Position numbers and translations under genes: made by a program
Notes under the pieces: generated by a model
Told to the model about the DNA's origin: nothing
Database searches by the model: none
Seen by the model: the letters and a program-made list of their open reading frames with translations, nothing else
IMG/VR virus record: IMGVR_UViG_3300027763_000250
Coordinates: 1-22,584 of that record
Origin: a virus
DNA: 22,584 nt
Reading direction: 5' to 3' (one strand)
Shown: positions 11,375 through 15,013 of the stretch, piece after piece
How positions within the stretch are numbered: position 1 is the first letter of the stretch
How the letters are laid out: each line of letters starts with the position of its first letter

Positions 11375-12718
11375 TTATTTAGGGTTTTGAACGTACAACG
11401 TGGCATACGGACAGGCATCGCCATGATCTGTGTGCTGGTACTTAATGTCATATTCAGAGAATTTGCTCTGCCACCATTCGCTAGGAAACACGGATAGATG
11501 AAGCGGGTGACCGATCAGCTTTCCCATACTATCGTCAAATAGGGCTATTTTGAAATAGCAACTATCGACGCAATCCATGATATTTCTAATAACGTCAGAC
11601 ACATCCTCTGGCGGGATATGCTCCATGACATCGGTGCAGTAGCCAATATTGCCGCTGACGCCGATTGGCTTGGTCAGGTCGGCTACCGTAAAGGGCAAGT
11701 TATTGCCTTCGTCGCGGCAATTCTCAGCAAAATCAACGAGTTGCACTTCGCAGCGGGTCAGGTTGGCAATCTTCTGACCGCCCCGGCCTGTGCCGCAGCC
11801 AAAGTCCACAATGACATCGGTCAGCTTGGGATCGGCAATCTGGACAAAATGCTCCGCAAATGACTCGCCGGGGGCGACTTCCCGGTAAAGCGGGGTCTGC
11901 CACATGGCTTCGTATTTACCGACTTCCGTCATGGGCGCGGGCGGCTCAGACATGGCCTTGGCAATAGCCGGGAGGAGGCCGTGGCCGTGGACCTGGATGA
12001 TCGTATCTTCTTCCGCAAGCTGCTGGGCTGCGGTCTGGAATTCCATAGCCTGCCGGGCCATCCAGGGGGCGGCAATGTATTCCTTGCCGCTGACCCAATA
12101 GCCTTCGCGGGGGTCTTCGGCGTTTGCCGCCTGGGCATAGGCATGGCCTTCGCCATTGGAATAGCTGGAATCAAAGCCGTAAAGGTGGATTGAGCGGTAG
12201 CCCATGCAGAAGGCGATGCTCATGGCCTGAAGGCCAACGGTGGTCCCGCCGCCGATCAGGGCGCAAAGACGATCACCAATGTATTCCTGAATGCCGGGGT
12301 AAGCCGGGTGCCAGACGGTCACATCCTGGCCGCCTAGGGCCTCAAAGACGCCATCGCTGCACTGGGACGCAATAAGGTACTTGGTAGACTTATTCGGGTG
12401 AATAAAGCCCTGATTATTTGCCCTGGCGTCCAGTAGCACAAAGTAATCAGGAGTCACATCAACGCTGGCAAGGGTCGGAATGGTGCCATTTACGGCAAAA
12501 ATGGCCTGACCAGCGGCCTTGTGACCGGCAATCATGGGGAGCAGCGGCTTCATAGAAGGGCCGCCCCCCACAATTACAGCTACCCCATCGTGCGGCTCTG
12601 CTAATTGCAGCCACGGAAGATCACGAGCAACGGCAGCAGTTATGTTGCCGAAAATCTCGTGATCCTCCGTGTTGCACACGATAGGAATCGTATCATCTAG
12701 GTTAGATGGTACGATCAT
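11375..12718 (-). CDS. DUF115 (MptE/Maf-like) domain fused to a class I SAM methyltransferase
   Basis: A 447-residue two-domain protein. Residues 45-255 resemble DUF115 (MptE-like, also the core of flagellin-modifying Maf proteins). They show GVAVIVGGGPSMKPLLP (45-61), an FAVNGTIPTL strand, PDYFVLLDARA (90-100), the IGGGTTVGLQAMSIAFCMGY helix and HLYGFDSSYSNGEGHAY (178-194). Residues 275-447 are a class I methyltransferase with the SAM-binding loop VDFGCGTGRGG (304-314), a VQLVDFAEN second strand and YCTDVMEHIPPEDV. DUF115 proteins transfer sugars or pyrophosphate; the methyltransferase could act on the same product. The gene starts with a TAATG overlap on the decoration-like gene, so it is coupled to capsid expression. 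Substrate is not visible. Domain identification is good, joint function is inference. Confidence 0.85.
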   Translation of the reverse strand: MIVPSNLDDTIPIVCNTEDHEIFGNITAAVARDLPWLQLAEPHDGVAVIVGGGPSMKPLLPMIAGHKAAGQAIFAVNGTIPTLASVDVTPDYFVLLDARANNQGFIHPNKSTKYLIASQCSDGVFEALGGQDVTVWHPAYPGIQEYIGDRLCALIGGGTTVGLQAMSIAFCMGYRSIHLYGFDSSYSNGEGHAYAQAANAEDPREGYWVSGKEYIAAPWMARQAMEFQTAAQQLAEEDTIIQVHGHGLLPAIAKAMSEPPAPMTEVGKYEAMWQTPLYREVAPGESFAEHFVQIADPKLTDVIVDFGCGTGRGGQKIANLTRCEVQLVDFAENCRDEGNNLPFTVADLTKPIGVSGNIGYCTDVMEHIPPEDVSDVIRNIMDCVDSCYFKIALFDDSMGKLIGHPLHLSVFPSEWWQSKFSEYDIKYQHTDHGDACPYATLYVQNPK

Positions 12719-13276: not shown

Positions 13277-14120
13277 TCACGCAATCAAAACGCCCTGGAA
13301 CTGCGAACCGGAGCAGGTCAGATTGCCCGCCCAGCCGATCAGCTTCACGATAGCGTCCTGGTTGACAGACTGGCGTTCGCCGCCAATCGGGACAAAGTTG
13401 CGGTCCACATGCGGCCTAAACATCAGATACTTGGTGTTCAGGAAGAACATGTGGTTAGCGGTAGCGGCAGCGCCGATACCACCGTCAAGCACAACATCCG
13501 ACGCCATACCAGCGCCATAGTACTTGAGCGAGGCAAAGCCAGCGCCAGCCATCGACGAACCGGAGTCCGAGATGCGCTGGATGGACTGCAACGACTGCAG
13601 GTACAGGCGATAGTAATTGTTGTCGGCAACGATCAGGTCAGGCTTGTCCGTACCACGGATAAGCTGCACAGCCAGGGCATCCATGTACTGCTGGATGTTC
13701 GAGGCAGTAACAGCCGAACCGCCGTTGGTCACGCCAGAGTAAGCAACCGACTGCCAGAACGAGAACGACGCGCGGTTGATGCCGCCGTAGGTGCCGCTGC
13801 TGGGCGCGTCAGGAACAGCGGCTCCGAGGCCGGTGATGTTCTTGCCGCTGTTGCCAGTGCCGTCCAGATACAGGTCGCCCGAAATGCGGTTAGCCAACTG
13901 GGCTTCCGCAACGTTCATACGGCCATCCAGCAGGTCGATGATCGCTTCCTTACCGGAGTTCTGGATCATTTCCAGGCCGGAGATGGTGATCGCCGAGGCG
14001 TACTGAGTGATCGAGAACTGAGCAGCCGAAATGGGGCTGTTCTGGGACACGTTCAACACTTCATAGCCAGAATAGCTGTTGGTGTTGTTGGTTGTGGAAT
14101 CATTGTACATAATTTCCTGC
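13277..14120 (-). CDS. Major capsid protein, exon 2 (280 complete codons plus stop)
   Basis: This exon encodes residues 54-333 of the spliced capsid protein, starting QEIMYNDSTTNNTNSYSGYE. The HK97-fold family is suggested by the SGYEVLNVSQNSPISAAQFS region, the long helix EAIIDLLDGRMNVAEAQLAN, GDLYLDGTGNSGKNITGL and the terminal AIVKLIGWAGNLTCSGSQ. The frame is open a further 52 codons upstream, to an ATG at 14275, but those codons lie in the intron and read as MILAALYLQAALGACNEHRP, unlike any capsid. The first base listed (14120) completes the last Leu codon of exon 1 if splicing follows the conventional U-end and omega-G rule. If the intron were not removed, no intact capsid would be made. 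Confidence 0.9.
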
Positions 14121-14855
14121 CACGGTTTGTTACGGGCAATGACACCCGGCCACATCATTTCTGTGTGACTCTCTATGTTCCCATAGAGTTCAGAGCACAT
14201 ATTCGCTTTCGCGGATGGTCTATGCTCGTTACACGCGCCCAGCGCAGCTTGAAGATAAAGAGCGGCAAGTATCATTTGCCCCCCACAATCTTAAATTGCG
14301 CTTGCTTGGCTCGGGGTTGTCCGTCCGCACCATTACTGGCCGGGCATAGGAGTTTCTCCGAATTAGCCATCATTCCATCAGGGGCACCTACGGTCTGCTT
14401 CAGCGACTTGATCTGCAAGCGCAAGCCTTCACGATAATCCTCGTAAGACTGGCGTTGTTCAGATGTCCACCGCTTGGCAGAGTTTCGATACCGCGTAATA
14501 TGATCTTGAAGCTGTATTGCGAGAATGGCTTCCTCGCGCTTTACGATCAGAAAAGGCATCATGTCCCGCAGCAATTGCGCTGCTTTTTCCCCGCAAAGCT
14601 GCGTTTGGTACGCAACTTTCCAGTGGGCCGCCCCTGGATTTTTCCGCGCCCTAAGAGCGCAGAATGCCGATCCAGTTTGCTCCGCAATCGCCCGAATAAC
14701 AGGTTCATGCGTCATGCCAAATATTACGCGTAAACTATATGAAAATCCGACAGCACTCTTCAACGGCACTTTGGGGATGTGAATACATCCTTCGCCGTCA
14801 AACAATCCTGCAAGATATCCGATTTCCATTAGTTAGCCCTGTGGCCCTAAATTAA
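14121..14855 (-). ncRNA. Group I self-splicing intron interrupting the capsid gene
   Basis: A 735-nt intervening sequence. Core elements seen on the minus strand:
- P3: GATGG (14371-14367) with CCATC (14218-14214).
- P4/P5: AATTCGG then GAAACTCC (14363-14349), facing GGACAACCCCGAGCC (14322-14308), with the classic GAAAC and CAA joining segments.
- P7: GAGCATA (14227-14221) with TGTGCTC (14199-14193), seven pairs, spaced from P3 as in known introns (P7-GA-P3).
- P8: CGC-GAAA-GCG (14213-14204).
- J8/7: AATA.
- P9: CTCTATG-GGAA-CATAGAG (14188-14171).
Exon 1 ends ...ATCCT and the intron ends in G, as required. P1 is weak: CCTT can pair with AGGG at 14848-14845. Layout resembles IC-type introns. 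A one-base shift of both ends (14854-14120) gives the same protein. Confidence 0.85.
14272..14829 (-). CDS. LAGLIDADG homing endonuclease (intron-encoded)
   Basis: A 185-residue protein starting MEIGYLAGLFDGEGCIHIPK. LAGLFDGEG (residues 6-14) is the LAGLIDADG helix, with Glu13 in the catalytic acid position. One clear copy is present, so it would act as a homodimer. The segment GEKAAQLLRDMMPFLIVKRE matches the usual C-terminal part of this family. It makes a double-strand break at intronless capsid alleles, which repair then fills with the intron. The gene lies wholly inside the capsid intron, starts after ACAGGGCTAACTA, and is out of frame with exon 1. Its last 33 or so codons also encode P3 to P6 of the ribozyme core, so its C-terminal tail (ASNGADGQPRAKQAQ...) is probably shaped by RNA constraints. 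Confidence 0.9.
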   Translation of the reverse strand: MEIGYLAGLFDGEGCIHIPKVPLKSAVGFSYSLRVIFGMTHEPVIRAIAEQTGSAFCALRARKNPGAAHWKVAYQTQLCGEKAAQLLRDMMPFLIVKREEAILAIQLQDHITRYRNSAKRWTSEQRQSYEDYREGLRLQIKSLKQTVGAPDGMMANSEKLLCPASNGADGQPRAKQAQFKIVGGK

Positions 14856-15013
14856 AGGATGACGTTACCGCCGGAGAACGTTTTCACGTTTCCACGGTCC
14901 TTCAGGCGACGAAGCAAAGCGTTATTGTTGGTCACGTTGTCGGCCAGTTCACCGCTGCGGCTCTGAATGTTCGTCGCAATGATGTCACTGATCGAACTAT
15001 TGGCGAAAGCCAT
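14856..15013 (-). CDS. Major capsid protein, exon 1 (52 codons plus two bases of Leu53)
   Basis: Reads MAFANSSISDIIATNIQSRS and continues through ELADNVTNNNALLRRLKDRG to VKTFSGGNVIL before an in-frame UAA that belongs to the intron. This is the N-terminal arm typical of this capsid family, in which ADN(V/M)TxNNALL and SGGxxIL|QE are conserved; joining to exon 2 restores the expected ...GGNVIL-QEIMYND. AAAGGA sits seven bases before the ATG. The exon follows the scaffolding gene by 23 bases. It is only 53 codons and so is easily missed; without it the stretch between the endonuclease and scaffolding genes would appear empty. Spliced length is 333 residues. Confidence 0.9.

Follow-up and report, generated by a model that had tools for sequence, protein, structure and literature searches.

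The major capsid gene of an uncultivated virus is split after 52 2/3 codons by a 735-nt insert. Judged by its sequence, the insert is a group I intron that carries a LAGLIDADG homing endonuclease gene resembling I-MsoI and I-CreI. The capsid gene lies on the minus strand of a 22,584-base IMG/VR record (the window, meaning the whole stretch analysed), as do terminase and portal genes, among others. The best explanation, in which we have high confidence, is a mobile intron that would be spliced out of the capsid message and spread by its endonuclease. This reading draws on a core that is intact from P3 through P9.2, on exact flanks, on the capsid frame being preserved and on the LAGLIDADG ORF; the points against it are that the Rfam model RF00028 gives no match, that P1 has 4 bp and that P8 has 3 bp. 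The parts of the interrupted gene are as follows.

14856-15013, minus strand: capsid exon 1, 158 nt (52 2/3 codons), with its ATG at 15013 and the 3' end ...AUCCU
14121-14855, minus strand: group I intron, 735 nt, placed by a match to our covariance model R1, by homology with compensatory changes to the intron of contig L268, and by same-site junctions
14272-14829, minus strand: LAGLIDADG homing endonuclease ORF, 185 aa, with the single motif LAGLFDGEG, between P1 and P3
13277-14120, minus strand: capsid exon 2, 844 nt including the stop, starting G|CAG and encoding QEIMYND...

Exon 1 encodes MAFANSSISD...GGNVIL and is followed immediately by an in-frame TAA, while exon 2 begins at the third base of codon 53. 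Both match the major head protein family PHROG 9953 (exon 1, E 8.2e-11, profile positions 4-53; exon 2, E 1.5e-86, positions 55-328), so the two capsid halves abut, in register, in this profile. When viral contigs were scanned with exon 2, 80 relatives with 90-100% identity were retrieved. Exon 1 runs continuously into QE, exactly at IL|QE, in 74 of the 80, and in the remaining six IL|QE is also uninterrupted, with inserts lying further upstream. Once joined, the exons of the window yield a 333-aa protein identical to that of the uninterrupted relative L001. Between the two genes there are 47 silent changes, 12 of them in exon 1, and 0 replacement changes. By this comparison, the insert would either leave the message of a constrained gene or have arrived very recently. 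A first-pass annotation had described a capsid gene split by 735 nt and proposed a comparison with intronless relatives, and the exact joins and the identity to L001 bear it out. It had exon 1 stop at 14852, which is instead where the in-frame TAA ends; coding ends at 14856.

Close capsid relatives also occur in MAGs labelled Armatimonadetes, Acidithiobacillales, Lysobacterales and Chloroflexota (L295-L299), in some cases on short contigs, and some of these assignments are probably binning errors. Inspection by eye suggested two further minus-strand products in the window: a sulfotransferase-like protein (1037-1693) and, downstream of the capsid gene, one that looks DUF115/methyltransferase-like (11375-12718).

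LAGLIDADG endonucleases are also found in inteins and in some group II introns, and group II introns have the ends GUGYG...AY. An intein was ruled out because the TAA stop directly follows exon 1, and the ends of the insert are unlike those of a group II intron. With the group I helices P3 to P9 also arguing against both, we give an intein or a group II intron practically no weight. A different reading of the same frame is that splicing has been lost and the capsid is made from exon 2 alone, starting at the ATG at 14275; the product would have 332 aa, about 52 of them encoded by the intron. The frame is indeed open from 14275 into exon 2 (13277-14275, minus strand), and the ATG overlaps the endonuclease stop (ATGA) with GGGGGG before it, an arrangement that looks translationally coupled. 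However, exon 1 is strongly constrained, its 12 differences from L001 all being silent, the open frame is not conserved in introns at the same site, which have in-frame stops there, and the ribozyme core is undamaged and shows covariation. We therefore regard loss of splicing as improbable.

Two registers of the splice junction fit the window equally well, CU^U..GUG^G and CUU^..GUGG^, which give the joined codons CUG and CUU, respectively. Introns at the same site in L113, L123 and L129 permit only CU^U...GUG^GCAG, and we therefore placed the intron at 14855-14121 with CUG as the joined codon; the joined exon sequence would be ..GUCAUCCU|GCAGGAA... This register would also place a U.G pair at the 5' splice site, within CCU^U/AGGG. 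With this choice, a U precedes the 5' splice site and the intron ends in G (14121), as in all 17 capsid introns with extracted ends, the window's included; because ambiguous junctions were assigned the U/G register, this agreement is a matter of consistency and not proof. A terminal U and G had been noted in the first-pass annotation, but the junction itself probably lies one nucleotide upstream of the position given there, as judged from the same-site introns.

The elements of the ribozyme were assigned as follows.

14845-14858, minus strand: proposed P1, CCU^U/AGGG, 4 bp with a 6-nt loop and a U.G wobble at the splice site, read from the sequence
14367-14371, minus strand: P3 5' strand, GAUGG, compensatory to GGUGG/CCACC in L268
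14310-14362, minus strand: P4 (UUCGG 14362-14358 with CCGAG 14314-14310) enclosing P5 and P5a, with a GUAA loop at 14336-14333
14237-14309, minus strand: P6 and P6a (AGCGCA 14302-14297 with UGCGCU 14246-14241), the pairing taken from the L268 comparison and the 5' coordinates of P6 and P6a from the sequence
14193-14227, minus strand: block of P7, P3 3' strand, P8 and J8/7, from the R1 match and the L268 comparison
14227-14221 with 14199-14193, minus strand: P7, GAGCAUA/UGUGCUC
14218-14214, minus strand: P3 3' strand, CCAUC
14213-14204, minus strand: P8, CGC-GAAA-GCG, 3 bp
14203-14200, minus strand: J8/7, AAUA
14133-14188, minus strand: P9 (GGAA loop), P9.1 (loop CAGAAAUGA) and P9.2, from the R1 match, the L268 comparison and covariation

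The conserved group I core helices P3, P4, P6, P7 and P8 are all present, with P6 and P8 short, and the P7 arms of the window recur in L181. The P3, P4/P5, P7, P8, P9 and GNRA loops proposed earlier were correct in substance, the stretch from P7 to P9.2 matching a model built without the window. The proposed P1 is the weakest helix, lying outside both R1 and the covariation support. An alternative guide sequence within the ORF, AAGGAUG, could form 7 bp with the exon sequence CAUCCUU; it was rejected because its U.G register would place a stop at the junction.

The closest relative of the window intron lies in the IMG/VR contig L268 (11747-12510, minus strand). Like the window intron, it interrupts a capsid gene of the same broad family and carries a LAGLIDADG ORF between its 5' end and P3; unlike it, the L268 intron is inserted at a different site, about 13 codons further on, has its endonuclease on the opposite strand and has GACUA/UAGUC as P7. 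It was found by scanning with a motif from the window, and P3-P6 lay outside that motif. Identity between the two cores is 78-80% over P3-P6 and P6-P9.1, and P3 (GAUGG/CCAUC versus GGUGG/CCACC), P5, P9 and P9.1 carry compensatory changes. P5a, P6a and P7 also differ between the two introns, yet are paired in both. RF00028 covers the L268 intron over its full length (E 2.5e-11, 41.1 bits, under the curated cut-off of 50).

A search of the window with RF00028, put forward as a check in the first-pass annotation, went against expectation: cmscan and cmsearch gave no match at any threshold on the whole window or the trimmed core. By itself this outcome would count as one of the results that the annotation had named as refuting its reading. 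Because of this result, we built a separate covariance model, R1, covering P7 to P9.2, from 41 other phage introns with the window left out. The collecting motif, AGAGY-N4-CAGAAATGA..TAACAA, came from the 3' end common to the window and same-site introns; it matched at least 120 stretches of viral contigs, and a P7-like AGTC.G lay just upstream in 103 of 124 inspected places. R1 matched the window once in 22.6 kb (14231-14127, minus strand; 68.8 bits; E 2e-18, the E-values of this model being rough owing to a shortened calibration). The P9.1 share of this score is not independent, since the motif was partly derived from P9.1 of the window; P7 and P9 played no part in collecting the training set. 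Interrupted capsids were matched in all eight site classes (E 1e-21 to 0.006, the residue-13 class through L301), compared to none of 74 uninterrupted capsid loci.

In an alignment of 50 sequences, the window's among them, that was fitted to the structure and hence leans towards it, P7, P9 and P9.1 have 97.8% standard pairs and 269 double-sided changes, versus a shuffle mean of 71. The covariation score for this set was 0.737 and fell below 0.09 once pairing partners were slid by one column. At its gathering score, which is a detection cut-off and no structural feature, RF00028 also misses L113, L114, L121, L123, L126, L129, L131, L132, L133, L139, L146 and L148, and it gives the same-site intron of L114 only 17.5 bits. 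Since it falls below cut-off on clearly group I introns at the same site, RF00028 is a blunt tool for this group, and a survey based on it would undercount such phage introns. A blastn search with the window intron core against 50,697 phage records gave no match.

ORF-less introns occupy the same site in L113, L114, L121, L123, L126, L129, L131, L132, L133, L196 and L271. They share with the window intron the insertion point and the type of 3' domain (P9.1 loop CAGAAAUGA, P9.2 and UAACAA end), but differ in being about 231-237 nt long, in having no ORF and in their P3-P8 sequence. No second contig bearing this exact LAGLIDADG-carrying intron was found in IMG/VR, as might be seen if an intron fragment had been wrongly joined to the capsid gene during assembly; near-identical records were possibly left out of the search. 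Such a chimera is very unlikely, because these 11 other contigs have group I introns at exactly the position of the insert, and their U/G boundaries and type of 3' tail agree with it.

The endonuclease assignment made in the first-pass annotation was upheld by the LAGLFDGEG motif and by a match to I-MsoI (E 9.4e-9, residues 2-105), with weaker matches to I-CvuI and I-CreI; Pfam LAGLIDADG_1 gave E 3.5e-4, just below its cut-off. The motif core is invariant in an 11-row alignment, and the LAGLIDADG helix is present with its catalytic acid. I-MsoI and I-CreI are likewise single-motif enzymes, distantly related to the window protein, which unlike them has an additional C-terminal tail whose codons lie in the ribozyme core. 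Matches to homologues stop near residue 150 and the last ~35 codons fall in P3-P6, so that the endonuclease frame extends across half of the core. By analogy with its family, the enzyme may home at IL|QE. Its relatives in L081-L112 are mostly not beside R1-type introns (two matches, both in L088), and the endonuclease family alone is therefore no argument for an intron. The best PHROG match of the ORF is 5046, labelled HNH endonuclease; this label is probably wrong, the window protein being LAGLIDADG.

If the insert is a mobile group I intron, as we favour, the pre-mRNA would fold and guanosine would attack after ..AUCCU, and the exons would be joined as ..CUG-CAG.., giving a message for the normal 333-aa capsid. 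We infer this splicing of the window intron from its sequence. The endonuclease would be translated from unspliced RNA and would cut the intron-free capsid genes of co-infecting relatives near IL|QE, whereupon repair would copy the intron in. Capsid production would then depend on splicing, an interpretation already offered in the first-pass annotation and supported by the present evidence.

A capsid-gene intron as such is already known. Mycobacteriophage LittleE has a group I-type intron of 819 bp with a putative LAGLIDADG endonuclease in its major capsid gene, with splicing proven by RT-PCR and protein N-terminal sequence, although its authors did not firmly assign the intron class (PMC3706429). 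It resembles the window intron in the U at the end of exon 1, the G at the end of the intron, the LAGLIDADG gene and the capsid gene as target, but belongs to another phage lineage, has its endonuclease on the opposite strand and involves one capsid site. A group I intron in the capsid gene of lactococcal phage Tuc2009 is known to us as cited in PMC3706429; unlike the window, this is a phage of a Gram-positive host, and the likeness is judged from its description. Jug phages have 18.5 introns per genome, with metatranscriptome support for some (PMC12363816). In the open-access literature, subscription papers being mostly outside our scope, we found no description of a capsid gene with many intron sites, which is not proof that such multi-site density is new.

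The more interesting result is that the capsid gene is a multi-site target. At least eight group I intron sites were found in this capsid family, the counts being minima from pattern scans.

Residue 13: L011 (RF00028, 68 bits) and L301
Residue 27: at least 36 distinct contigs in which both exons were seen; the ORF looks GIY-YIG-like on inspection
Residue 53: the window and at least 11 contigs
Residue 61: L185
Residue 71: L126, L133, L146, L152 and L271, found through tblastn gaps, the junction splitting a Tyr codon
Residue 145: L196
Residue 150: L164 and L279
Residue 309: L146 and L129

The more distant capsids of L267 and L268 add further sites. Because relatives carry introns at seven positions other than that of the window, the gene for the shell protein is one on which such elements have landed repeatedly. 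Three introns interrupt the one capsid gene of L146 (27, 71 and 309), each matched by R1, and two inserts per gene occur in L126, L133 and L271 (53 and 71), L129 (53 and 309), L196 (53 and 145) and L164 (27 and 150). ORF-less introns at residue 53 (L113, 1843-2076) and residue 150 (L164, 9361-9128) are 91% identical and both follow CCU, as does an 81% identical ORF-less intron at residue 61 (L185, 4990-5233). Introns this similar (81-91%) at three capsid sites suggest movement within the gene, which fits guide-sequence-directed reverse splicing; homing with a since-lost endonuclease is a possible alternative. A bolder reading, slightly less likely than not, is that the capsid gene is a true hot spot in which short ORF-less introns moved between sites, probably by guide-sequence-directed reverse splicing into abundant capsid mRNA, and that up to three would be removed per transcript before the shell is built.

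Besides the LAGLIDADG enzyme of the window, GIY-YIG-like and HNH-like endonucleases were recognized by inspection in the relatives. Eight sites, several endonuclease types and near-identical introns make this gene family a good natural test of homing versus reverse splicing. Ribozymes that mostly escape the standard Rfam model have colonised this essential, very highly expressed gene time and again, so many broken-looking capsid genes in environmental phage contigs are probably intact and spliced. Six contigs (L251, L264, L219, L291, L207 and L187) each carry at least three R1-type or motif-matching introns.
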